Assembly (NCBI RefSeq): GCF_921294215.1
Contig: NZ_CAKLDM010000002.1
Span: forward strand, 558,001 to 622,000
Reading direction: 5' to 3'
DNA: 64,000 nucleotides
Source of the DNA: Vibrio marisflavi CECT 7928
GTDB taxonomy: Bacteria > Pseudomonadota > Gammaproteobacteria > Enterobacterales > Vibrionaceae
This document shows, piece after piece, positions 43,119-64,000 of this stretch. Made by a program: the position numbers and the translations under genes. The notes under the pieces are model-generated. The model was not told the DNA's origin and ran no database searches. It saw nothing but the letters and a program-made list of their open reading frames with translations. Every line of letters begins with the position of its first letter. Positions within the stretch are counted from its first letter, which is position 1.

Positions 43119-45302
43119 ATGAAGAAATTGCTGCTGATCGTTGCTATTCTCATAGTTGTCGTTGCTGGAGCTATCACCGCTTTAGTCACTTTAGTCAATC
43201 CCAATCAATTCAAACCTCTCATAGTTGAACAAGTCAAAAAACAAACAGGCTTAGACTTAGTTATTCAAGGTGATATACGTTGGCAGTTTTTTCCATCGAT
43301 AGGCTTTGAGCTAGGCAAGACCGAACTGAAAAATCCGCAAGGGTTCTCAAACCCAGATATGTTTAAAGTTAATCAGGTGGGCATCAATGTTTCCGTTCTT
43401 CCTTTATTGGATAAAGAACTGAAAATAGGCAATGTGACCCTAAAAGGGGCACAGATTGATGTAGAAACATTAAAGGATGGCTCAAAAAACATTGATGCTT
43501 TGCTAAGCGGCAATAAGGCCGATACTAATAGCGAGACGTCTAAACCAGCTCAGACTGATGCTTTCACTCAAGTACAAAGTAGTAAAGTTGATAGCTCAAC
43601 TCAGAAAAATACAGCCGCTGAGAGTTCAGATAAATGGTCGATTGACCTTGAAGGTGTAACCATTGAAAACGCTACGCTGCAAATGACCGATAAGCAAACT
43701 GGAAACTTTACCAAGCTTTCTGATATGTCACTCAACCTTTCGGGATTTGCGGCAAATCAGTGGACAAAAGCAACCTTCTCTGCAAACGGACAAAATAATC
43801 AACAAACCTTTACTTCTAAGGGGAGTTTAGAGTTTAAGTTATCAAAAGATTTTTCTCAGTATGAACTCAGAGATGTATCGATTACTAGCAGTTTTAAGGC
43901 TCCTGATATAGAAGTGGATAAAGTTCACTTGGGGCTAAACACTTTCCAACTTGATAAAGAAAACAAGCTAAATTATGCCGTAGATGGTAAAGCTTCCGGA
44001 GTGTCATTCGCTATTAAGGGAGATGGAATTTTAAGTGTTGACCATACTCTTACTACAGTGGCGTTGAGCAACTTCACTTTGAAAGGGGATTTAGAGGGGA
44101 AATCGCTACCTGAATCGCCAATGAAGTTGGATATTTCTACCGCGCTGAGCTTCGATCTTGAGAAGAAACATTTAACTCTTCAGCTAGAAAAATTGCAAGC
44201 CAATGCATTGGAGCTAGATGGGTCATCAGATGTAACACTGTCTACTATACCTAAGATTCGTTTTGATCTTCATAGCCCAGACATCAATCTAGATGAATTT
44301 CTCAAAGTACAAGAGAAGCCTCAACCTGAGGCATCTCCGGTAAGTGATAAGCAAACTGGTTCCAATCCAAACAGCTCTGTAGATCAAAGTACAAAAAAGT
44401 CTACAGCGGAAGTTGAGCCTGATCTTTCAGCACTAAAATTGCTAGACGTTGCGGGAAAGATAGCAATCGATAAATTTCAAATGCAAAACGCCAAAATGCA
44501 AAATGTTAAGGCGAGCATTTCAGTGAAAGATGGCATTGCAAAGCTGACTTCCTTTACCTCGAACTTATACGATGGAAAAATTTCGGCAAACGCCATTTTG
44601 GACGCTCGTAAGTCGCCAGCAAGTTACAAAATCACTAGTAAGGTTGCGGGTGTTAAAGTCCAGCCACTCCTCAAAGATGTAATGGACAACGACAAACTAG
44701 AAGGTGTCGGGAACATTGAGTTAAACCTACATGGTAAGGGATTAACACCAACGGGGATTAAAAAGAATGTCGCGGGTACGATTGCTATTAAGTTCACTGA
44801 TGGTGCAGTGAATGGAATTAACGTCGCGCAACTTATCCGTACTAACTACGCCAAGTTCAAAGGACAGCCAGTTGAAAATACAAACGAGCCGCAAAAAACG
44901 GATTTCAGCTCAATGCAGGCGACTATCAAGTTAGCGAATGGCGTTGCAAAAACGGATGACTTAAGTGCTAAGTCGCCGCTTCTTCGTGTACATGGTCAGG
45001 GTTCAGCTAACTATATCAATGAAACGGTCGATATGGTGATTCGAACTTCTATCGTAGGCTCTTTGAAAGGTCAAGGTGGGCAAAGCATCAATGAACTTAA
45101 AGATGTGACCATACCGGTTAAGATTACTGGTAGCTGGTCAGATCCGAAGTACAAAGTTGTTTTAGACAATGCTTTAAAACAAAAAGCTAAAAATGAGTTA
45201 GAAAAAGGTATCGATAAGTTAAATAAAAAGCTTGGCGATAAAATTAATAATGAAAAGACAAAGCAAGCCGTAGATAAATTATTAAACAATTTATTTAAGT
45301 AA
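43119..45302 (+). CDS. asmA: AsmA-family protein
   Basis: A 727-residue envelope protein with an N-terminal membrane anchor (MKKLLLIVAILIVVVAGAI) and a periplasmic AsmA domain. PLIVEQVKKQTGLDLVIQGDI at the start, repeated beta-strand stretches and the C-terminal GLTPTGIKKNVAGTIAIKFTDGAVNGINV are family-typical. AsmA-like proteins are implicated in outer-membrane assembly and phospholipid transport. Two Ser/Thr/Gln-rich linkers (near residues 145-175 and 400-440) are low complexity. I use the ATG at 43119 with AAGGA upstream; an ATG at 43113 is also possible. Confidence 0.9.
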   Translation: MKKLLLIVAILIVVVAGAITALVTLVNPNQFKPLIVEQVKKQTGLDLVIQGDIRWQFFPSIGFELGKTELKNPQGFSNPDMFKVNQVGINVSVLPLLDKELKIGNVTLKGAQIDVETLKDGSKNIDALLSGNKADTNSETSKPAQTDAFTQVQSSKVDSSTQKNTAAESSDKWSIDLEGVTIENATLQMTDKQTGNFTKLSDMSLNLSGFAANQWTKATFSANGQNNQQTFTSKGSLEFKLSKDFSQYELRDVSITSSFKAPDIEVDKVHLGLNTFQLDKENKLNYAVDGKASGVSFAIKGDGILSVDHTLTTVALSNFTLKGDLEGKSLPESPMKLDISTALSFDLEKKHLTLQLEKLQANALELDGSSDVTLSTIPKIRFDLHSPDINLDEFLKVQEKPQPEASPVSDKQTGSNPNSSVDQSTKKSTAEVEPDLSALKLLDVAGKIAIDKFQMQNAKMQNVKASISVKDGIAKLTSFTSNLYDGKISANAILDARKSPASYKITSKVAGVKVQPLLKDVMDNDKLEGVGNIELNLHGKGLTPTGIKKNVAGTIAIKFTDGAVNGINVAQLIRTNYAKFKGQPVENTNEPQKTDFSSMQATIKLANGVAKTDDLSAKSPLLRVHGQGSANYINETVDMVIRTSIVGSLKGQGGQSINELKDVTIPVKITGSWSDPKYKVVLDNALKQKAKNELEKGIDKLNKKLGDKINNEKTKQAVDKLLNNLFK

Positions 45303-45308
45303 ATATGT

Positions 45309-45335
45309 AGGCTCGGCAATTATATTGTCGAGCCT
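45309..45335 (+). terminator. Stem-loop after asmA
   Basis: AGGCTCG/CGAGCCT stem extended internally by CAAT/ATTG across a wobble pair; the following stretch ATATATTA is T-poor, so termination strength is uncertain. Confidence 0.6.
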
Positions 45336-45880
45336 ATATATTATGAAACAACACGCCCACCTATCATCACAGATCAATGTAATATTTATGATGTCCAAAT
45401 GTTACGTAAATTATTTGATCTGAATCCCATCCTATTAGCCAAAAATTAACCAGTTTTTTTGATCTGCCACAAATGTTTGTCAACTATTTTTCTAATTCTG
45501 CTCGAAACTGGGTGTTGGATGAAATTTGCCCAAATCGGAAATCGCTCATGACAAATACATTTTGGCAACGAAATTTATATTTTGTAACAAATTAATTTGA
45601 TCATGATCATGTTTGTTTATTTTATGAGCTGCAATTTAATATGAATGCAGATTCATAACTCAGCAAATTTTTTGAGAATAAAGGGGTAAAATTGAAATGA
45701 AAGTATTCATTTTTTGAGACTTTAATCACCTTATCAATAGGGGTATCTTGGTATCGAGCCGATAAAGAATGAGTGCTGGTATCTATATTTTAATGTGTAA
45801 CTGAATGTTAACAAATTTGGTTGCCTAAGTATTTGCGCCACGAATATGTATGCTCATAGCTATGACTGAAGGGTATAGAC
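45336..45880. promoter_or_regulatory. AT-rich leader region of the atp operon
   Basis: About 545 bases with no convincing gene. Visible features are the palindrome TGATCATGATCA (near 45599-45610) and three GGTATC repeats near 45744-45782. A weak extended -10-like TATGCTCAT lies close to the atpI start. The atp promoter should be in this stretch. Confidence 0.45.
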
Positions 45881-47054
<1,174 letters not shown>

Positions 47055-53553: not shown

Positions 53554-54006
53554 ATGAAAAAAATATTGGTCGTTTGTATGGGAAACATTTGCCGCTCGCC
53601 GACGGGAGAAGCGGTATTGAAAGCAAAGGCTGCTGAGCTGAATATTGATGTCGAAGTGGAGTCTGCTGGAACGATTGGCTACCACCAAGGTAACCCTCCA
53701 GATCAAAGGGCGAGAGTTGCTGCAGAAAGTCGAGGCTACTCGTTTGCAGGGATGACTGCTCGTCAGGTCACAGCAGATGATTTTGAGTATTTTGATTTGA
53801 TTCTTGCCGCTGATGAAAATAATTTGTCTGATCTTATGCGAGAGTGTCCTAGCCAGCACCAAGATAAATTGGCGCTTTTCTTGAGCTTTGGTGACAGTGA
53901 TTATCAAGAGATACCCGATCCTTACTACGGCGGAGGTGACGGATTTGAATTAGTGCTCGATCTTATCGAAAACGCCTCAGAGAATGTCCTCAAGTCTTTG
54001 AGTTAA
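53554..54006 (+). CDS. Low-molecular-weight protein-tyrosine phosphatase
   Basis: A 150-residue phosphatase with the N-terminal active-site loop VVCMGNICRSPTGEA (C-X5-R-S) and the C-terminal DPYYGG motif with the general-acid Asp. Relatives act on tyrosine-phosphorylated kinases of polysaccharide export, but no such kinase or capsule genes lie near here. It could also be an arsenate-reductase-like relative, although the DPYY motif favours phosphatase. Confidence 0.9.
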   Translation: MKKILVVCMGNICRSPTGEAVLKAKAAELNIDVEVESAGTIGYHQGNPPDQRARVAAESRGYSFAGMTARQVTADDFEYFDLILAADENNLSDLMRECPSQHQDKLALFLSFGDSDYQEIPDPYYGGGDGFELVLDLIENASENVLKSLS

Positions 54007-54009
54007 AGT

Positions 54010-54050
54010 AAAACAGGAACTCCCACTTTTTAGTCGGGAATTCCTGTTTT
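54010..54050. terminator. Terminator after the phosphatase gene (both directions)
   Basis: Long hairpin AAAACAGGAA...TTCCTGTTTT with an inner TCCC/GGGA pair, flanked by T and A runs. Confidence 0.8.
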
Positions 54051-54184
54051 ATCTTATATTGTAAGAGGCTAAGTGCTGGCTGGTCTCATAAGAGCGAGTA
54101 TGGACTATAGCCTACTTTTCTTAACTGTTGCCGATTTCTTGTACTTAGCGACAGCAGAACACTTATTTGTATTGTGCTAAAAAG

Positions 54185-54751
54185 TTACAGTTCTTCTACG
54201 TTAACTCCGACAGTAACAGCTCCTATCACTTTTCCTGAAGCTGGGTCGGTAATCGCATAGCTCACTTGTGACTGGAACATCTGAGTTGACTCATCTTCCT
54301 CAACTTCACTAATGTGATATGCGTTAGGGCCTACGCTATAGGTTTTTTGCCACTTCGCTTCATCGCCTTGCCAGTAGTCAGACGTTACAGCACTTTGAGC
54401 GACATTTAATCCTTTGTCATCCATAACAAATATTTCGGTAATTTTGCCGCCGCTTGCTTCTTGCATGCCAACAAGCTTTTTCGAAGTAGGGTTAGAAAGT
54501 TTTTCTTGAATGAGAGGCTGGTTACTGGCAGCAACTTGAGCTCGCCACTCCTTATCCAGCGCTATGATTTGGTCTTCAGTGAGGTTTTGGTTAGCGATAT
54601 TTTGCGCTTTTACGGCAGCGATTACGTCTGGATCCGATGCAATTGTTTTAACTTGCCCGTTTGCATAGCCTTTTAGCGCTTCTTCATACTCATTAGCGAT
54701 AGCATTGCAAGATAAACCTAGCGCAGCAATTAATACCAGTAAGTGTTTCAT
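54185..54751 (-). CDS. Secreted PDC/Cache-like sensor domain protein
   Basis: A 188-residue protein with a signal peptide (MKHLLVLIAALGLSCNAIA, cleavage before NEYEE). A single compact domain follows that resembles Cache/PDC sensing domains: a long helix (EALKGYANGQVKTIASDPDVIAAV), then the beta-rich KITEIFVMDDKGLNVAQS, SDYWQGDEAKWQKTYS and the ending SYAITDPASGKVIGAVTVGVNV, as in chemoreceptor dCache modules. There is no transmembrane or output domain. It probably binds a small ligand in the periplasm; the partner is unknown. Confidence 0.75.
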   Translation of the reverse strand: MKHLLVLIAALGLSCNAIANEYEEALKGYANGQVKTIASDPDVIAAVKAQNIANQNLTEDQIIALDKEWRAQVAASNQPLIQEKLSNPTSKKLVGMQEASGGKITEIFVMDDKGLNVAQSAVTSDYWQGDEAKWQKTYSVGPNAYHISEVEEDESTQMFQSQVSYAITDPASGKVIGAVTVGVNVEEL

Positions 54752-54968
54752 GTCGGGTTCCCTCTGTCATGATTCATACCAATTGGTTACTAAAAGAGCG
54801 TAGGTGACATTTTTATATATGTGAAATAAATGAATAGAATTTTGAACTAGTGTGTAAGTGATATCGGCCCATACAAACACCATGTGAAAAACATCGGTAG
54901 GCGATTAATGTCATACAGGGTAACACCCTGCTGACTATGCGGAGTTTTCTTACTTAGTAGAATAGAGA

Positions 54969-55649
54969 CTACATTTCTGCCGACATCACTCTTCCACTAA
55001 AGTATTCATTCGAAACAATATACTCTGTATTACGTATTAGCTCATCTTGCACTTGAGCCCAGTGAAATTGTCTTCCACTCGATGTCGGGTGTAGTGCAGG
55101 TACAACACCACCAACACGAATGTTGAATGGTGTTAACTCTTTTGCCCAGCTCTGAGTAAAACCTGCAATCATCGAGGTAACATTTTCAAATCCAGAAAGG
55201 TCTTGGCAGTCTTCCAATGATGCAACGTTTACAATCACACCTTTCTTATTGTCGGTGCGCATTCTTTCAGCGGTTGCTTGACCAAAATTGAATAACGTAG
55301 AAGCCATAACGGAGACAGCTGTGCTAAATAAATCGTCTGATGAGTCATCAATGAGTTTTGGTAGTTGGTTTCCAGACCAATTGTTGACTAACACGTCTGG
55401 CGAGCTGCCATAGGTAGTACTTACAAAGTCGAACAGTTGGTTGATTGAGTCTTTCGAGTAATCTGAAATATGGAACTGATGAACGTCCCTAGAGATCTTG
55501 AGACAAAGCTCGTAGGTGTTAGTTAGCCTAGTTTGTTGTTGATCACACAGAATGACCTTAGCACCCAATTCACAAAAATGGGCGGCTAATGTTTCTCCTA
55601 GCGTAGAGCCAGCAGAAGTAATGACGACAATTGCGCTTTGTATATTCAT
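54969..55649 (-). CDS. Short-chain dehydrogenase homologue, apparently lacking catalytic residues
   Basis: The 226-residue protein has the overall SDR pattern: N-terminal VVITSAGSTLGETLAAHFCE, the LVNNWSG stretch where NNAG usually stands, VIVNVASLED, and FTQSWAKELTPFNIRVGGVVP. Aligning the last segment with usual SDRs puts Phe and Thr where the catalytic Tyr and Lys of YxxxK normally sit, and the coenzyme loop has Ser and Thr for two glycines. It may bind a nucleotide without catalysis, or the alignment may mislead. No linked pathway genes are seen. Confidence 0.8.
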   Translation of the reverse strand: MNIQSAIVVITSAGSTLGETLAAHFCELGAKVILCDQQQTRLTNTYELCLKISRDVHQFHISDYSKDSINQLFDFVSTTYGSSPDVLVNNWSGNQLPKLIDDSSDDLFSTAVSVMASTLFNFGQATAERMRTDNKKGVIVNVASLEDCQDLSGFENVTSMIAGFTQSWAKELTPFNIRVGGVVPALHPTSSGRQFHWAQVQDELIRNTEYIVSNEYFSGRVMSAEM

Positions 55650-55850
55650 CCTGTTGTGCCTCCAACTCTAGTGATAAATTTATAACTAGAGGCAAAAAAT
55701 GTTCACAAAGAATGGTTGATTAGTTGTGATTTAGTTGTGAATAAGTTCAAAATTATGGTTAGTGAGGAGAGAATTGGTGACATTTGTGGGCTGATTCACA
55801 CATCCGATATTGATAGCTGTTGTTGTGAAACTGGGTGGTTATTTTCTCAG

Positions 55851-56354
55851 TTAAGTACGAATTGACAATTGATCTTTGCGACAGGAAACAAGCAGTTGTT
55901 CATAGAGGTCAAAGGGTAGTAGATCCTCTTTATTCCCCTCTTTAAGCCTTCTTCGTTCATGACCGGACAGATTGTGGTACACCTCTTCAGAAAGGTTACC
56001 AGTATCTTCTAGCTGATATACCAATGGTTCGGAGTGAAGGTAGTGGTTCAATTTTGTGCTGGGTAGACCACCTTGGTGAAAAGCTTCTGCCTGCGTAGCT
56101 GAGAAGGCATATGAGTTTTCATCCGAGGTTAACTTTTGTGGTGCAGAGAGTGAGAACTTTTTGCGTAAGGTTAAGTCTGTTTGCTCTTGTTCGCTGACTT
56201 GCTCAACGGGAGTATTGTCTCTTACATCATCAGAAAACATAGATAGAAGCAGCGAAAAATCAGCACGGCGGCCAGATTGAATAGCTTGGTTGATATTAGT
56301 ACCAACAGTCAGTTCACTAACAATTTCTGCTTTGTCTAAGGTATGAATTTGCAT
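55851..56354 (-). CDS. Unknown 167-residue protein
   Basis: I do not recognise this gene. It starts with a good ribosome-binding site (GGAG six bases upstream of the ATG at 56354). There is no signal peptide or membrane segment. The N-terminal half contains an AIQSGRRADFSLLLSMFSDDV stretch, the middle is Gln/Glu/Thr-rich, and the C-terminal 40 residues (LSGHERRRLKEGNKEDLLP, then DLYEQLLVSC) are charged and probably helical. It could be a small regulator or an effector chaperone; nothing in sequence decides. Confidence 0.7.
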   Translation of the reverse strand: MQIHTLDKAEIVSELTVGTNINQAIQSGRRADFSLLLSMFSDDVRDNTPVEQVSEQEQTDLTLRKKFSLSAPQKLTSDENSYAFSATQAEAFHQGGLPSTKLNHYLHSEPLVYQLEDTGNLSEEVYHNLSGHERRRLKEGNKEDLLPFDLYEQLLVSCRKDQLSIRT

Positions 56355-56551
56355 TTTATTCTCCACATTACAACTCGTTAGCGGTCATGTGGGAGAAAAC
56401 TTTAGTCATTATTAGTTCTTATCCAAGCAGCCGCTTTATAACGGCGATGAACTTTTCAGTTTCTTTTAGGGTAAAAAAACGTAAATTGTCTCGATTTTGC
56501 AGATTAGAACTGCATACTGTTATGCGGTAAGTAACCTAAGTGGTTTAGAGT

Positions 56552-56665
56552 ATGAAAAAACTAATCATAGGGCTTTTGGCAGCAGTAACACTTTTACTCA
56601 GTGGCTGTGTAATGGTCCCGGGGCCCGTTGTAGTGAGGCCTTTACCAAGGGTTGTTGTACTTTAA
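56552..56665 (+). CDS. Tiny lipoprotein A (37 residues)
   Basis: ATG at 56552 to TAA at 56665. It has a complete lipoprotein signal peptide, MKKLIIGLLAAVTLLLSGC, with the lipobox LSGC. The mature part is only 19 residues from the Cys: CVMVPGPVVVRPLPRVVVL, rich in Val, Pro and Arg. It is similar to lipoprotein B 290 bases downstream in signal, length and tail pattern. Function is unknown. It has no strong Shine-Dalgarno sequence. Its AT-rich flank carries a near-inverted repeat (CCAGC/GCTGG at 56687-56713). Confidence 0.72.
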   Translation: MKKLIIGLLAAVTLLLSGCVMVPGPVVVRPLPRVVVL

Positions 56666-56840
56666 AGCAGTGGTTTATTAGATTTTTGCCAGCTTAATAA
56701 AAATATCGCTGGAACTCTATGATTTGTTAATCATGAACTCAGAATATTTATACCGAATTGCTGACAGAATCTTTACTAATCGAACACTGTTTTTATGATA
56801 AAGTCCGGCCTGACTATATTGACAAAGATGTAGGTAAGTT

Positions 56841-56993
56841 ATGAAAAAATTACTAGCAGGAGCTTCCATAGTGGTTGCTTCTTTATTGAGCGGTTGTGTT
56901 GTCGCTCCACCACCACCCGCGAGAACAGTAATCGTAAAGCCTGCTCCTAGGGCAGTCGTTGTTCGACCAATGCGCAGAGTTGTAGTTATTTAA
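56841..56993 (+). CDS. Tiny lipoprotein B (50 residues)
   Basis: ATG at 56841 to TAA at 56993. Signal peptide MKKLLAGASIVVASLLSGC with lipobox LSGC, then CVVAPPPPARTVIVKPAPRA and VVVRPMRRVVVI. Proline-rich start and a basic, valine-rich end are shared with lipoprotein A. The two are likely duplicates. AGGT lies upstream of the ATG. Small cell-surface lipoproteins of this type are often missed by gene finders. Confidence 0.75.
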   Translation: MKKLLAGASIVVASLLSGCVVAPPPPARTVIVKPAPRAVVVRPMRRVVVI

Positions 56994-57311
56994 CGCAATT
57001 TATTAAAGGGATTTAAGCAAGTGATGGAAGGTATCTCAACTCTTAGAGCTCGTTCCAGCTGAGGTATAACCGATGTTGGAACGAGCTTTAATTTTCTGCC
57101 CCTAAACCATCTTCTGTTAAAGTGATGACCGTCCATTGGGGGTATCACCAAGGATACTCAAGTTCAAGAAGTGCTCGTTTGTAGCCAACAAATGAGGAAG
57201 AAAAGGGCATGAGCAATTATTGAACTGCATTTCATGTATATTACCGAAATTAGCACCACTCACAGCATGGTACTGATTATGATATATAAACATTTGAGAC
57301 GGAATAATCAC
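56994..57311. other. Intergenic region with a strong inverted repeat
   Basis: 318 bases without a gene. AGCTCGTTCCA (57047-57057) and TGGAACGAGCT (57077-57087) form a perfect 11-bp stem with a 19-base loop and a following TTAATTTTC. It is likely the terminator of the lipoprotein transcript, possibly serving the convergent large gene. A small GTATC/GATAC hairpin lies near 57140. Confidence 0.6.
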
Positions 57312-60300
57312 TTAGTCATTCTCTGCTAAATAATAAGCTAATCCCATGGAAAAGCCGACCATAGGCACTTGCATGAGTGCAGATGCAGGCGCTAAATATT
57401 CCGTAGGGTCGTCAGCACAGACCCATGCGAAATTAGTATACTTTCCTATGCTCGTAAAAATTGCTTGGACAATTTCTTCTGCTCCTTCTGTCCAGTTTGG
57501 GTCATTTATTTCAGATTCAGATCCAGCATACATTTGACCCACCATGTTTTCTAGCGCGAGAGTCGTAATTATAAAAGCGACAACCTGAGGGGGTAAGCTT
57601 GTGCCATTTAGCTGTAAGGCTCCTTTAAACATACTAAATAATGTCATCCCTAAGTAAAAAAGAGCACTTGAAGTTGATAGAGGTTCTGTATCCTCTGTTT
57701 GCAGTTTTATCACAAATTGAATAGCTGCAATTGAGCTAGTTAATATGTTATCAAGAAGATAGATAGGGTTGCTGCTAGTGTTGCTGTCGCCACTCAACTG
57801 TTTTGCTGTCCACACCAATCCATGCATATAACAATACAGAGCGCTAACAGAGTCGAAAGCAATTGTAGCTTTGTTAGCTGAAGTCGCTCCAAACCCTTCT
57901 TCAGCGGAATCTCCCGTTATATCGCTTAACGATGAATAGGACTTGCCTGTGTCTACATATAAAGTTACCCAGGTTGCTAGGGCTATCGGCCAAAATATCA
58001 GGTCAGTACCAGAAACTGTTAGATTATCGTGGTCACCTGATCCAATTCCGAACAACGCGAATATATCACCGATGAGTCCTAATTTTATAGTAAAGAGATC
58101 TTGGCTAATCATGCTTGTAATAAAGCTTGTGTCATAGCCACCATTATTGCTACCACTCTTAGATGAAAGGCTTACCTTTGTTAGTATTTCTAGTATCGGC
58201 TCTACAATATCTTCTGTATAGGCTGATGTTAAATTGCTAATATTGTCAGTAAAAACTTTTTCAACGCTTGAAGGGCTGTTTGAAACATTAGCAAGTAAAA
58301 CTAGCAGTGATAGCATTTCTTCAGATTGTGTGTCAGTAAGGTTAGCTAGGATGTTGCTAATCATGTTGGCAAGGTCATCTTCAATATCTGAAATGTCTGA
58401 AATAGAAACATCAGGCACACCAAAGTCATCACTCATGGATGAGCTATTGGTTTTTTTCATTATTGGGTGAAGTAGGTAGTTGAGAAATGGATTGTTACTA
58501 ATATTTTGTGATGCTTTATTTGTTGTTGCTTGCGCCGAGACAATGCTAGCAATATCACTTGATATAGTTGAAGAAGTAAATAAGCTGTTAGTGGAAGTTT
58601 GATTCGCTGAGCCAAAATAATTAGAAAAGGTATTATTTACAGCACTCATCCCGCTACTAATAGCCGAAGGTGGAGTGTTGATTAATGTCGAAAACTCAGT
58701 GGCTAAGCTGTTCTTTAGAGACTTAATATCTTCAAAGTACCGAAATAAAGAAATCAGCCAAATGATCAACTCAATAAACTGATACATGAATGACGCTTTG
58801 ATGATAGTCTTCAGCACTTCGACGACGATGCTAGCGAATTGCTCAATAGAATCGATGGTTTCTTGCAGATCTTGATCGAGGCCGTTCACCGCTTTCATAA
58901 TCGACTTGTCAATTTTTACCATATCACTGGCAGAAACATTGATGGCAATCTGTACTCCATTGCTAAGGTCACTGTACGCACTCTCTGACAAATGCTGCAA
59001 ATGATGCAAAGCATCACTCACACCATGACAGACTTTGGAAAATGAGGTGCCGAATGTGTTTTCTTTGCTTGTAGCGACAGCAGACAAACCACCGGGGTTA
59101 TTCGTCACCGTTCCACTGCTGTATGTAAAGGATGTAGTGTTTGACGCTGTTGTTTGCGTGCTCGATGATGAGGTTAAACAAAACAGTGGATTAAGTGTAT
59201 CTGAACTAGCATCAGGGTACAGAGTTTGTCTTGTCACCCCCGGAATGATCAGCATATTGGTACCCGACTGGTTTAAGAAAGTGGCAGTCGGCTGCATTCC
59301 ATCAGATGTTTTTTTAAAGCTGCCTTTGGTGCTGTAGTCCGGCCCAGTACTTGTACTATCAGAACTCACAGTGCTTTTACTATTGGCGATACTAGCGCCT
59401 GTGACATAGACATTGGTATCCATAAATGGAGTTGGGTTGGAGTCATTGGTTTGAACAGTTGTATCGGATGTGTTTCCCATTCGGTATTGAGCTTGCTCAG
59501 TGATATTAATGACTTGCCATGGGTAAGTGATGGCATCGTCTGCTGCAGCGATCAGGCCAATATCGGTGGAGGATGCTTCAAACTGCTTTGAGTTGACTAG
59601 TCGGGCATAAATATTCTGCCCAAATGTAGATGCTTTGAGGACAATGTTCGCTTGCTTAGTCGCTGGATCAACCTGCGCCATAAATGAGGCATACCGATTG
59701 ATGTTGTGGCAATAATTGCTCACGGTATCTGTTACGGTGCAATCAGAATCGGCTCGAATTTCCAACATTAAATCTTGGTTGGCAGTATCACTTAGGCTAG
59801 CGATATTACCATCGCTATCGGCAGGTGAGAGTGTCAGGTGGTAATAATCACCAGTTGCTTGGTCTAATGTTGGGTCATATTCAATTTGACTGGCAATCTC
59901 ATGACTATGCCACTTGCGTTCTAATAACGTGTTAATGGAACGGTAGAGGCCGTAGGTGTTGGTATCTGTAGCACCAAAAGTGGTGGAATCTGCCGTGGAG
60001 TCTGTCATCATGACGGAGCTAATATATTCGCTGTCGTGGTATGTGCGGCGAGGTGTAGTGATGTCGACGATACACCCAGATGCCAAGCATACGGCTTGTG
60101 CGGTACCATCCAGCGTGGAGCTGCTATTGGTTGACGTATTCGTATCAAAGGCCATTAACGTACTTAGTACCAGTTGGATCGGAATGGTAATGTCTTCATC
60201 CGTTGAGGATTTGTAGCAATTGCCTTCAATATAATGCCAATCGTAAGGTGTGTTTTTTACATAGCTAATTGGATTTGACTCAAAGTTTCTTACTGCTCCC

Positions 60301-62015
60301 GTTTCGTCATATGGGCCGTAAATAGGCTTGCCATAGGGTGTATCGCTGCTCGATGCTCTTTGCTGGCGTGCGAGGTAAAGGTTTTTGTTTTCATCCAATA
60401 TGAAGTACCGCATTCCACCAAACTTGCTAAAGCAGCTCGATATTTTTTTTATGTCTCCATTACCTGTAATAGGTTCGGGTAGGCGCAAGGGGTAACTTGC
60501 TTTGTGATACCAGTGACCATTGCCATCAATGTGTTTTAGTACGACGATTGCGGGCATGGCAGCATTCGTCATTTCTAAAAGTTTGACATAGTAGACGTTG
60601 CCTTCAGAATCGGTGTACCTGTATAAGTCGTGTATGCTATTGACATCTTTCCAAACCCAATTCCAAGCGCAATATATTTCTCCGGAAACATTAGGAGCGT
60701 AGGATTGTGGTTTATTTTTAGCGTGGTCATTGTCATCTTTAAATTCAGTATAAGTGCAAGTCGTTGGGAAGCCTGCAGACACTGACTTTGATGAGTCGAC
60801 TTTTGAAAACTCGTAAGATTGAGTCACTAAGTAAGTATTGCCATCTTTGTCATTAGTGGTTTGGTTCCCGTAGACCACCGTGCGAAGCACTCTATTCTCG
60901 CTGCTGTTCCAGTCGATATGAACAACCGGTGCATCGGAGGCGTTGTTGGGATAAAAGACTTTGCTCGATGATAGGTAGCCTTCAGGTGTCATAGTGAGGA
61001 TATGAGCCCCATTTCCTTCATTAAACACAATGTGTTGGTAAGAAGTTTTTTCTTCAAATACGCCTGATGAGGTATATCCAGAGTTTACAAAATGTCGAAC
61101 ACTCGAATAACCAGTATTGATATACATTGATGAAGCGTTTTTAATAGTCCATTGATATTCGCCTATCGTATCTGGTGTTATTGTGAGCGTGTCACTTGGC
61201 GCTGTTGAGGTAACAGTACCATAAATCAAATACCCATCTGACTTGCCTTGATTGAGCTCTACATAAAGTAAACACCTGGCTGTAAACTCCAGGTCACCGT
61301 TATCATTAACTACACCCACATTGTTGGCCCCGGCGATTGAGCTAAATAGTCGAATAGTACTTGGGCCATCGGAAGTTGGCGCATCAACGGTGATACCACT
61401 TTTTATAACTATCCGTTCCAAGCCTTCTGTTCTAGCACCATTTGTAACCGCTCCGATAGGGTGTTGGTAGTGGACTAAATCCCATGTGCTTTGTGTATCG
61501 GTCGTACTTACTTCCTCAAGTTGAACAAAATCGTTGAGTGCAAACGCATGTCCGTTGTCACTAAAGGTGCTTTCAATTGGATTTGAAGAGGTGAGATCTG
61601 ACTGCATTCGTATCGCACGTGCAGATGAATCAATCGTACAATGTAAATAGGTCGTATCTGGTGGAATAACAGACTCGCTATAAACCGTATCTGAAAATAA
61701 CTCTGTCCCGTAGACTATTTGTGTTGCGGTTGGGCCTTGAGCCGGAGTGTAATTAGTCGCCCCAAAAGTTTGCTCAGAATTATCTTTGTTTGGATACTCA
61801 CTGCCCAATTCTTCAGCAATAAGCCCATAAGAGAATAGACCCGAACTTATTAAAGGAGTAGCAACTAGAATAGCAGCGGTACCTTTCAAACATCTGCGCT
61901 TTGACTCTACATGTTGAAAACAATCTACTTCTTTTGGAGTAAGTTTATCTAGCTTCAGTGCTTTTTTTATCGCCTCAGTGATTTGAGTTCTTACTTTAGT
62001 GTTGAATGGATTCAT
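57312..62015 (-). CDS. Unknown 1567-residue membrane-associated or exported protein
   Basis: I do not recognise a family. The ATG at 62015 follows GAGGTG; the open frame extends 23 codons further upstream. Residues 1-43 are basic and cytoplasmic-like, residues 44-66 (KGTAAILVATPLISSGLFSYGLI) form a membrane or signal segment, and the rest follows. Residues about 70-1000 are Ser/Thr/Asn/Asp-rich, probably beta-structured, with scattered Cys and aromatic motifs (CAWNWVWKDVN, HIDGNGHWYHKASYP). Residues about 1000-1567 are helical with hydrophobic stretches near 1070-1095, 1315-1360, 1460-1500 and 1545-1567. FGAT occurs three times (residues 84-87, mid and late). The length, topology and isolation suggest a secreted or surface protein, perhaps adhesive or toxin-like. 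Confidence 0.75.
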   Translation of the reverse strand: MNPFNTKVRTQITEAIKKALKLDKLTPKEVDCFQHVESKRRCLKGTAAILVATPLISSGLFSYGLIAEELGSEYPNKDNSEQTFGATNYTPAQGPTATQIVYGTELFSDTVYSESVIPPDTTYLHCTIDSSARAIRMQSDLTSSNPIESTFSDNGHAFALNDFVQLEEVSTTDTQSTWDLVHYQHPIGAVTNGARTEGLERIVIKSGITVDAPTSDGPSTIRLFSSIAGANNVGVVNDNGDLEFTARCLLYVELNQGKSDGYLIYGTVTSTAPSDTLTITPDTIGEYQWTIKNASSMYINTGYSSVRHFVNSGYTSSGVFEEKTSYQHIVFNEGNGAHILTMTPEGYLSSSKVFYPNNASDAPVVHIDWNSSENRVLRTVVYGNQTTNDKDGNTYLVTQSYEFSKVDSSKSVSAGFPTTCTYTEFKDDNDHAKNKPQSYAPNVSGEIYCAWNWVWKDVNSIHDLYRYTDSEGNVYYVKLLEMTNAAMPAIVVLKHIDGNGHWYHKASYPLRLPEPITGNGDIKKISSCFSKFGGMRYFILDENKNLYLARQQRASSSDTPYGKPIYGPYDETGAVRNFESNPISYVKNTPYDWHYIEGNCYKSSTDEDITIPIQLVLSTLMAFDTNTSTNSSSTLDGTAQAVCLASGCIVDITTPRRTYHDSEYISSVMMTDSTADSTTFGATDTNTYGLYRSINTLLERKWHSHEIASQIEYDPTLDQATGDYYHLTLSPADSDGNIASLSDTANQDLMLEIRADSDCTVTDTVSNYCHNINRYASFMAQVDPATKQANIVLKASTFGQNIYARLVNSKQFEASSTDIGLIAAADDAITYPWQVINITEQAQYRMGNTSDTTVQTNDSNPTPFMDTNVYVTGASIANSKSTVSSDSTSTGPDYSTKGSFKKTSDGMQPTATFLNQSGTNMLIIPGVTRQTLYPDASSDTLNPLFCLTSSSSTQTTASNTTSFTYSSGTVTNNPGGLSAVATSKENTFGTSFSKVCHGVSDALHHLQHLSESAYSDLSNGVQIAINVSASDMVKIDKSIMKAVNGLDQDLQETIDSIEQFASIVVEVLKTIIKASFMYQFIELIIWLISLFRYFEDIKSLKNSLATEFSTLINTPPSAISSGMSAVNNTFSNYFGSANQTSTNSLFTSSTISSDIASIVSAQATTNKASQNISNNPFLNYLLHPIMKKTNSSSMSDDFGVPDVSISDISDIEDDLANMISNILANLTDTQSEEMLSLLVLLANVSNSPSSVEKVFTDNISNLTSAYTEDIVEPILEILTKVSLSSKSGSNNGGYDTSFITSMISQDLFTIKLGLIGDIFALFGIGSGDHDNLTVSGTDLIFWPIALATWVTLYVDTGKSYSSLSDITGDSAEEGFGATSANKATIAFDSVSALYCYMHGLVWTAKQLSGDSNTSSNPIYLLDNILTSSIAAIQFVIKLQTEDTEPLSTSSALFYLGMTLFSMFKGALQLNGTSLPPQVVAFIITTLALENMVGQMYAGSESEINDPNWTEGAEEIVQAIFTSIGKYTNFAWVCADDPTEYLAPASALMQVPMVGFSMGLAYYLAEND

Positions 62016-62213
62016 ACTGCACCTCATAACGTTGCTTACATCAATTGCATATTCAATTAAGTAAATTAATACTACTGATAGCACGTAATGGATGTGTCAG
62101 TTTGCATATAAAAATAATTAAGAATATTAATCTTTTCGTATCAAGTTGTTGCGGGTGATAGGTTTTCTGAATGAGTGTGAGTGAAGGGGCAAACTTAACT
62201 AATGCATTAAATG

Positions 62214-62236
62214 AAAAAAGCCTGCAAATGCAGGCT
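62214..62236 (-). terminator. Terminator of sodB
   Basis: AGCCTGCA/TGCAGGCT stem with a 2-base loop and, on the minus strand, a run of six T. Confidence 0.85.
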
Positions 62237-62265
62237 TAAGAATTATTTATAATTAACCCTGTTAA

Positions 62266-62850
62266 TTACTTCGCTAGGTTTTCTGCTACGAATGACCAGT
62301 TAACTAGAGCCCAGAAACCATTCATGTAGTCTGGACGCACGTTGCGGTAATCGATGTAGTATGCGTGTTCCCATAGGTCAACAGTTAGAAGAGGAGTCAC
62401 ACCTTCTTCTGTTAAAGGAGTCGCAGCGTTAGAAGTGTTAACGATGTCTAGAGAACCATCCGCTTTCTTAACAAGCCAAGTCCAAGAAGAACCGAAGTTG
62501 TTGATTGCTGAGTCAGTGAACTTAGCTTTGAATTCTTCGAATGAACCGAAAGCTGCGTTGATAGCGTCTGCTACAGCACCAGTTGGTTCGCCACCTGCGT
62601 TAGGCGCTAGGCAGTGCCAGTAGAAAGTGTGGTTCCAGATTTGCGCTGCGTTGTTGAATACACCGCCAGTTGAAGTTTTGATGATCTCTTCTAGAGACTT
62701 ACCTTCAAATTCAGTACCAGGAATAAGACCGTTTAGCTTAACAACGTAAGTGTTGTGGTGTTTACCATGGTGGAAATCTAGTGTTTCTGCTGAGATATGA
62801 GGTTCTAGTGCGTCTTTAGCGTAAGGAAGAGCTGGTAGTTCAAATGCCAT
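62266..62850 (-). CDS. sodB: Superoxide dismutase (Fe)
   Basis: Dismutates superoxide in the cytoplasm. The 194 residues contain [27 protein letters not shown] and [13 protein letters not shown], carrying the His and Asp iron ligands. The Gln-position pattern and overall sequence fit the iron enzyme. The ATG at 62850 ([12 protein letters not shown]) follows GGAGAA. Divergent from grxD, as in other gammaproteobacteria. Confidence 0.96.
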
Positions 62851-63013
62851 TGCTCGATTCTCCATATAGATGAAAGAGTTAGTACTTTCGATTGCTTCCG
62901 AAATTTGTTTTTATTGAGTCAATGTGACTGACTTGCGATACAGTTTAGCAAGTTTTTACTTTATTAAAAGGGTAAACCGAGGAAATTTATTGTTTGATTT
63001 CGCACTATACTTT

Positions 63014-63032
63014 ACTAATGATAATTACAAAA
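63014..63032. promoter_or_regulatory. Possible Fur box between sodB and grxD
   Basis: Contains TAATGATAAT, ten consecutive matches to the left side of the 19-base Fur consensus; overall about 12 of 19 positions fit. Iron control of sodB and grxD is plausible but the match is partial. Confidence 0.35.
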
Positions 63033-63123
63033 ATTAAACCATAGAGAATCTAAGCTTTTTATTCTCGTCTAATGGTTTAGAATAGCGGGATTAAGTGTCG
63101 TCCATTTGTACAACGAGGAAGCA

Positions 63124-63459
63124 ATGGAAACTATAGATAAAATTAAACAGCAAATCGCAGAAAACCCAATTCTTTTATACATGAAGGGCTCACCTAAGTT
63201 GCCTAGCTGTGGTTTCTCTTCTCAAGCATCTCAAGCTCTAATGGCTTGTGGCGAAAAATTTGCTTACGTTGATATTCTGCAAAACCCAGACATCCGCTCT
63301 GAGCTTCCTGTATATGCACAATGGCCAACTTTCCCTCAGCTTTGGATTGAAGGTGAGTTAATTGGTGGTTGTGACATTATTCTAGAGATGTTCCAAAAAG
63401 GCGAACTTCAGCCGCTAATCAAAGAAGCTGCTGAGAAAATCGAACAAGACGCTGAATAA
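63124..63459 (+). CDS. grxD: Monothiol glutaredoxin (Grx4 type)
   Basis: Fe-S-cluster-binding monothiol glutaredoxin of 111 residues. LLYMKGSPKLPSCGFSSQ carries the CGFS active site and WPTFPQLWIEGELIGGCD is the glutathione-binding TVP-like region. The ATG at 63124 follows GAGGAAG; a start 18 bases upstream is less likely. Confidence 0.96.
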   Translation: METIDKIKQQIAENPILLYMKGSPKLPSCGFSSQASQALMACGEKFAYVDILQNPDIRSELPVYAQWPTFPQLWIEGELIGGCDIILEMFQKGELQPLIKEAAEKIEQDAE

Positions 63460-63490
63460 TACTGTATAAAATTACAGTTTTTCTTGTTTT

Positions 63491-63518
63491 AGGGCTACAA
63501 TTTCAATATTGTAGCCCT
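63491..63518 (+). terminator. Terminator of grxD
   Basis: Perfect 11-bp stem AGGGCTACAAT/ATTGTAGCCCT with a 6-base loop, followed by a weak T stretch. Confidence 0.7.
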
Positions 63519-63543
63519 AATTATTTCTGCTCAATAAATTTTT

Positions 63544-64000
63544 ATGACTCGCCTTTTTATTGCTGAAAAACCTAGCCTTGGCCGAGCAATCGCCGCTGCA
63601 CTGCCCAACCCTCAAAAGAAAGATCAAGGTTTTATCCGGTGTGGAAATGGTGATGTTGTCACGTGGTGCATTGGTCACTTGTTGGAGCAGGTTGAACCAG
63701 ATGCCTATGATGAGCGATATAAAAAATGGAACATTAACGATTTACCCATCATTCCACCTCAATGGCAGTTGAGACCGCGTAAAACCTCAAGTAAACAGCT
63801 GACCGTCATTCGTAAACTGCTGAAAGAGTCTTCTACTATTGTTCATGCAGGAGACCCCGACCGTGAAGGGCAGCTACTTGTGGACGAAGTGATTGATTAC
63901 TGCAAAGTCAGCAAGGCCAAGAAAGAAAATATTCAGAGGCTGCTGATCAGCGACTTGAACTTGCCTGCGGTTAAAAGAGCACTTGATGGGATGAGAAGTA
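63544..64000 (+). CDS. topB: DNA topoisomerase III, 5' part
   Basis: Type IA topoisomerase with decatenating activity. The in-frame translation from the ATG at 63544 opens [20 protein letters not shown], the Toprim start with AEKPS, and continues through TWCIGHLLE and [16 protein letters not shown], the acidic DPDREGQ motif that binds Mg2+. The reading frame is open to the window edge, so about 150 codons of roughly 640 are present. The catalytic Tyr lies outside. Confidence 0.95.

Follow-up and report, generated by a model that had tools for sequence, protein, structure and literature searches.

A duplicated and possibly dedicated Tat translocase alongside a lineage-restricted family of giant proteins in Vibrio marisflavi

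Introduction

In Bacillus subtilis, the gene for PhoD adjoins that of a second twin-arginine (Tat) translocase, TatAdCd, which, in the available text of one article, is reported as secreting PhoD specifically (PMC3827258). A survey in the same article finds more than one tatC in 39 species (~5%), and its main text holds no word beginning with Vibrio. Here, we describe a 64,000-nucleotide stretch of the Vibrio marisflavi CECT 7928 genome (hereafter, the window), in which a gene of more than 4.7 kb encodes a giant protein, protein A; a second member of the same family, paralogue C, is encoded elsewhere in this genome beside a second tatABC set. PhoD with TatAdCd is the nearest known arrangement to this one: in both, a second Tat translocase is encoded beside a Tat-type cargo gene, here that of paralogue C. 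The arrangement in V. marisflavi differs in comprising a full tatABC set of Vibrio origin, a cargo of ~170 kDa that lacks a known family, and six divergent predicted cargos at scattered sites.

On balance, we favor the reading that a lineage-restricted, diversifying family of giant folded proteins is exported by a duplicated Tat translocase that is probably dedicated to it. Standing questions are how the TatBC receptor selects cargo and what size of folded protein the Tat system can pass, and a natural paralogous TatABC pair in one cell, together with a fixed signal on variable passengers of ~1500 residues, would make both questions accessible to direct signal-swap tests. Among the matches listed in our literature search, no title or abstract concerned the giant family or a second Tat set in Vibrio.

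A family of giant proteins in two Vibrio species

The preliminary description of the window, made from the sequence alone, had pointed to a long intact frame with a good start, and its boundaries hold exactly: the frame, for which that description gave no strand, comprises 1567 codons on the minus strand, with an ATG at position 62015 (Table 1). An in-frame GTG lies 23 codons upstream, but the ATG is preferred because a Shine-Dalgarno-like AGGTG stands at it and the family alignment begins there. Protein A has a mass of 171 kDa, and its gene has a G+C content of 42.0% versus 43.1% for the window. In four pairs of giants, the proportion of synonymous differences (pS) is ~0.8 and thus saturated, whereas the proportion of nonsynonymous differences (pN) is lower (0.28-0.55), which argues that selection acts on the giant frame at the protein level. 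Protein A aligns over nearly its whole chain with five full-length paralogues of the source genome, and together with the excess of pS over pN these alignments argue that the frame is real beyond chance.

The source genome (4.78 Mb, 8 contigs) encodes six giants, with no more found by a seven-sequence profile. The giants are ~1500 residues long, complete precursors having masses of 164-174 kDa, and they are strongly diverged: the other five source-genome paralogues are 17-19% identical to protein A, with up to 43% identity between paralogues. Vibrio sinus (S4M6), of the same genus, has three giants. Three protein-database searches, each scoring ~7990 candidates, add a relative of 1185 aa on a 3.8-kb contig (P0002; 37% identical) and two shortened near-copies of two of the paralogues from other sources (P0003 and P0004).

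Of 329 Vibrionaceae genomes, two were seen to carry full-length giants, those of V. marisflavi and V. sinus. In a class-wide draw, 3 of 369 genomes gave matches, namely the source genome and two in which signal-peptide positions alone were covered (E 3.1e-4 and 0.0034). At most two candidates were scored per genome in these two scans, so a member could be missed, and copy numbers come from separate profile searches. A single-sequence search of 40 relatives returned no giant (0/40), and a scan of a genome collection with one peptide pattern gave 17 matching stretches, the single confirmed one being from V. sinus S4M6. A third Vibrionaceae genome, G204, gave a short, doubtful match (E 1.9e-5) in which a 134-aa frame covers 98 profile positions, and it lacks a TatC of the second type described below; we judged this to be a chance helical match.

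In the family tree, protein A pairs with P0002 (100/100), paralogue C groups with two V. sinus giants (100/100), and the other four source-genome paralogues cluster together (100/100); the deepest split has weak support (63/45). These groupings indicate that the giants, or at least paralogue C, had diverged before the two species separated. The alignment contains 17 invariant columns, none of which is Cys or His.

The family was described at the outset as unknown, and it stays so at the thresholds used: profile searches of ten giants against Pfam, NCBIfam and the PDB, and of four against PADLOC, gave nothing usable, protein A itself matching no entry in any of these, and no toxin family was matched in the Pfam and NCBIfam searches. 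The family thus lacks a counterpart in the libraries searched, with full-length members in two sequenced species. The weak Pfam hits Baculo_PEP_C (3.6e-4, 2/10 giants), and Orthopox_F14 (0.0013), PTP_N (0.0083) and others (one giant each), were discounted as matches to low-complexity or helical sequence. The 8 Pfam families matched by any of the ten giants at E 0.1 include none with SLH, Ig-like, RTX or related modules, although divergent modules could be missed in such a search.

A conserved Tat-type signal peptide

Tat-type targeting, read from the protein sequences, is the best supported step of our reading. All ten aligned giants begin with a basic n-region, an arginine pair and a hydrophobic core. 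In nine of them, the pair lies within SRRxF followed by L, I or V; protein A has SKRRCLKG. A KE..CF element stands ahead of the twin-arginine motif in 8/10 giants, being missing in P0002 and in one V. sinus giant (L040). After the hydrophobic core, six giants have a P(S/T)AWG-type end and three have the variants PTSWG, PTAWA and PKAWA, whereas protein A has none. The basic segment and membrane segment noted in the preliminary description are both present, and we now recognize in them the Tat-type signal that it had missed.

This signal is the most highly conserved stretch of the family. Mean pairwise identity (45 pairs) is 49% for residues 38-70, versus 32% for residues 1-37, 32% for residues 71-115, 22% for the propeller-like part, 26% for residues 710-850, 18% for the linker, and 16-31% for the helical part (36 pairs instead of 45 for its last two blocks). 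The most conserved of 1388 windows of 33 residues starts at residue 27, while the best one beginning beyond residue 75 reaches 40%. Signal peptides usually evolve faster than their passengers, and the reverse pattern seen here suggests a constrained receptor. Export of the giants is well supported as a prediction from their sequences.

A second tatABC set linked to one giant gene

The source genome contains two TatC genes and four TatA/B-type genes. As judged from translations, the first Tat set lies in a ubiB-tatABC-tatD-hemB neighborhood. The second directly follows the gene of paralogue C (C1:675832-680394): 49 bases separate this gene from tatA, 2 bases separate tatA from tatB, and 24 bases separate tatB from tatC, all on the same strand. 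Paralogue C alone is adjacent to the second set; the other five of the six giants, including that of the window, are encoded away from the tat genes. Two TatC genes are likewise present in V. sinus, where the second set has a TerB gene on one side and a PhoD-like gene on the other. There, the second tatABC (L035:7269-10623) ends beside the convergent PhoD-like phosphatase gene (Pfam E 2.2e-10); no Tat signal was seen by eye in its product, and PhoD is the cargo that adjoins the second Tat set of Bacillus.

The second TatC (TatC2) is 89% identical between V. marisflavi and V. sinus and 74-76% identical to either TatC1, whereas TatB2 has diverged further between the two species than TatB1 (55% vs 75% identity). 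Scored across the 329 Vibrionaceae genomes, the source TatC2 reaches 521.6 bits and that of V. sinus 460.3, followed by 394.8 for the next best among the score-sorted matches listed; by this clear gap, the TatC2 clade occurs in the same 2/329 genomes as the full-length giants. In a separate TatC scan of 41 genomes, 38 gave a match and three gave two: the source genome, one in which the second match is weak and interrupted (G007), and one in which the two are overlapping parts of one gene (G019). Three further Vibrio genomes (G273, G284 and G303) have two TatC matches each, which reach at least E 1e-105 but score lower than the TatC2 clade and possibly represent further tat duplications in the genus.

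In a TatC tree of 34 rows, the TatC2 clade (100/100, long branch) groups at 97/90 with the TatC1 proteins of V. marisflavi and V. sinus. These two TatC1 sequences pair with a support of 92/78, and 13/31 inner branches are unresolved. As the tree joins TatC2 with these species' own TatC1, the duplication of tatC is placed within the V. marisflavi/V. sinus lineage. The linkage to paralogue C, the co-occurrence with full-length giants, the fixed signal and the faster-changing TatB2 make a dedicated translocase plausible, and together they moderately support dedication of the second set to the giants.

Predicted architecture of the mature protein

The preliminary description saw a Ser/Thr/Asn-rich beta part followed by a helical last third with hydrophobic stretches, and this outline is borne out by composition (29.2% Ser+Thr+Asn in protein A), by hydropathy, and by models that are themselves of low confidence. 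These models suggest a beta-propeller followed by a helical part with a hydrophobic stretch, the latter called from 19-residue Kyte-Doolittle peaks of at least 1.3. With the propeller model (mean predicted local distance difference test score, pLDDT, of 43.6), the Foldseek matches listed are nearly all propellers by title. When compared to the seven-bladed PLL-type lectins of Photorhabdus and Chromobacterium (PLL, PHL and CV39L), identity is 6-13%, and the best Foldseek template-modeling (TM) scores are 0.19/0.39 at low model confidence; the lectins score no better than unrelated WD40-type propellers. For the helical part, the family profile made weak contact with designed helical bundles (E 0.016), and the model had no PDB fold match at E 0.001, which by itself does not establish a new fold. 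The combination of long helices with a hydrophobic stretch, in a model with a pLDDT of 36, recalls the alpha-pore-forming toxins, but no sequence or fold match to these was found. Such toxins, which include ClyA-like proteins, have chains several times smaller than the giants. Protein A may be pore-forming, adhesive or S-layer-like, as initially suggested, but the models are too weak to settle this.

The tetrapeptide FGAT occurs three times in protein A, as had been noted, but it is a minor feature: two other 4-mers also occur thrice. At least one thrice-occurring 4-mer appears in 38% of 500 shuffles, with three or more such 4-mers in 0.8%, and only the first FGAT (residue 84) aligns with an FGxT of other members, in 5/9. 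On the shuffle test and the single aligned site, we rejected the repeats as a meaningful feature.

Proposed mechanism and alternative explanations

In the mechanism that we favor, a giant would fold in the cytoplasm, its N-terminal Tat signal would dock on the TatBC receptor, and the chain would cross the inner membrane folded. The second tatABC set, duplicated in this lineage and still joined to one cargo gene, would probably serve the giants. Outside the cytoplasm (in the periplasm, on the cell surface, or in the medium by a further step), ligand recognition would probably fall to the propeller-like part, and membrane engagement to the helical part, which carries the hydrophobic stretch. A bolder form of this proposal, which we hold to be doubtful, is a private export system in one Vibrio lineage: after duplication of the entire tatABC set, the receptor of the copy would have been re-tuned, as the fast-changing TatB2 may indicate, to read the extended KE..CF...SRRxF signal of polymorphic recognition-plus-membrane proteins of ~170 kDa, which would diversify behind an unchanging signal, as a Tat counterpart of polymorphic toxin delivery.

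Several observations weigh against the favored reading. The motif of protein A is the least canonical of the ten, with a lysine in place of the first aligned arginine and RR one residue later; the available text of one study describes lysine substitution in the twin-arginine motif as poorly tolerated (PMC7317946). The TAT_signal (E 0.049) and TIGR01409 (E 0.0083) profiles each score one of the ten giants, weakly. The 15 kb fetched around the V. sinus tatABC2 contain no giant gene. The two species look like one lineage and are probably not independent observations, so the co-occurrence of giants and TatC2 may be one historical event. Finally, the pLDDT values of both AlphaFold models and the TM-scores of the best Foldseek match are low. 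It is also conceivable, if rather less likely, that the giants are ordinary cargo of the housekeeping TatABC and that the second set is a duplicate that lies beside one giant by chance. The ~75% identity that TatC2 retains to TatC1, the giant-free surroundings of the V. sinus set, and the distance of five of the six source-genome giants from tat genes fit this explanation, whereas the tight same-strand array of giant and tatABC2, the restriction of both TatC2 clade and full-length giants to the same two genomes, and the greater divergence of TatB2 fit better with a dedicated translocase.

What the giants might do after export is a separate matter, in which propeller-based recognition with helical membrane engagement is our first choice and a structural surface role comes next. 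A secreted or surface membrane-active toxin, whose lectin-like propeller would bind target cells and whose hydrophobic helical hairpin would insert, comparable in principle to alpha-pore-forming toxins, is a tentative proposal that is compatible with the favored reading. It is opposed by the lack of a toxin family match, by the weakness of the C-terminal model, which has no PDB match at E 0.001, by the equal scores of WD40-type propellers, and by the neighborhoods of the giants, in which no activator, immunity or secretion gene was recognized, by eye only. The very large size, Ser/Thr/Asn-rich and beta-rich composition, and several divergent copies per genome would suit a structural role at the surface or in the envelope (as adhesin, coat or matrix) that involves no damage to membranes, which we consider slightly less probable still; adhesin or anchoring domains are absent from the Pfam matches of the ten giants, no separate repeat search of the proteins having been made, and proteins of this kind are rarely exported by Tat instead of Sec. 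A toxin or adhesin role is weakly supported. Least probable by some distance is a periplasmic cofactor-carrying enzyme: many Tat cargos bind cofactors, and this role would account for the passage of an already folded chain through Tat, but no credible enzyme family was found in Pfam, NCBIfam or PDB-sequence searches of the ten giants, and the invariant columns, as noted above, contain neither Cys nor His.

Insertion site and neighboring features

The preliminary description placed the gene in an accessory stretch, in agreement with its context in the genus. Among 15 same-genus genomes searched besides the source genome, 13 gave a VC2046 match, and in all 13 sodB lies directly beside the VC2046 gene (~115-275 bases apart by aligned parts), with no giant gene found between them in the fetched stretch. 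As congeners have these two genes adjacent, gene A is a single-gene insertion, absent rather than fragmented in these 13 genomes. The four order-level VC2046 matches lack sodB within the fetched flank. One V. sinus giant lies between mnmE and mioC, as judged from neighboring translations.

Table 1. Coordinates of the giant gene, its parts, its flanks and the other source-genome giants (window positions unless a contig is given)
Feature	Position	Strand	Remark
Complete giant gene, family member A	57312..62015	minus	Aligned with five paralogues
Residues 1-37, long basic n-region with KE..CF element	61905..62015	minus	K28, E29, C32, F33 invariant or nearly so
Residues 38-70, twin-arginine motif, hydrophobic core, probable cleavage region	61806..61904	minus	Ten-member alignment
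Residues 115-709, possible beta-propeller	59889..61673	minus	Low-confidence model, mean pLDDT 43.6
Residues 991-1567, helical C-terminal part	57315..59045	minus	Helical model, pLDDT 36.0
Residues 1070-1088, hydrophobic stretch near start of helical part	58752..58808	minus	In 9/10 members
sodB, upstream flank of insertion	62266..62865	minus	Pfam Sod_Fe_N, Sod_Fe_C
VC2046-family gene, downstream flank of insertion	55851..56366	minus	PF11993
IS200/IS605-like scrap	57087..57215		129 bases, 76.5% identical to Vibrio plasmid region
Source-genome giants besides window gene	C1:588187-592701; C1:675832-680394 (paralogue C); C1:945474-949979; C2:423644-428395; C2:2163413-2167939		Profile search

The IS200/IS605-like scrap sits in the 945-base gap downstream of gene A and is possibly the remnant of a mobile element; the match is the best of 6 records, of which the first carries an IS200/IS605-family transposase annotation and the other listed rows carry none. 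No DNA common to the flanks of nine giants was found at E 0.01. Neither protein A nor paralogue D has a match in 72,556 plasmid records, and paralogue D, the only one searched there, has none in 50,697 phage records. In viral contigs, two stretches matched the peptide pattern and zero were confirmed as giants. A transposase-like gene (L013:1110-2348, judged from translation) lies ~3.3 kb from paralogue E.

No Rfam family reaches its gathering score in window positions 54000-64000. Near the insertion, positions 54185-54751 encode a small secreted-looking protein with a weak PDC sensor domain match (E 0.042), and positions 45001-47000 have the lowest G+C content among the 2-kb steps of the window, at 35.6%.
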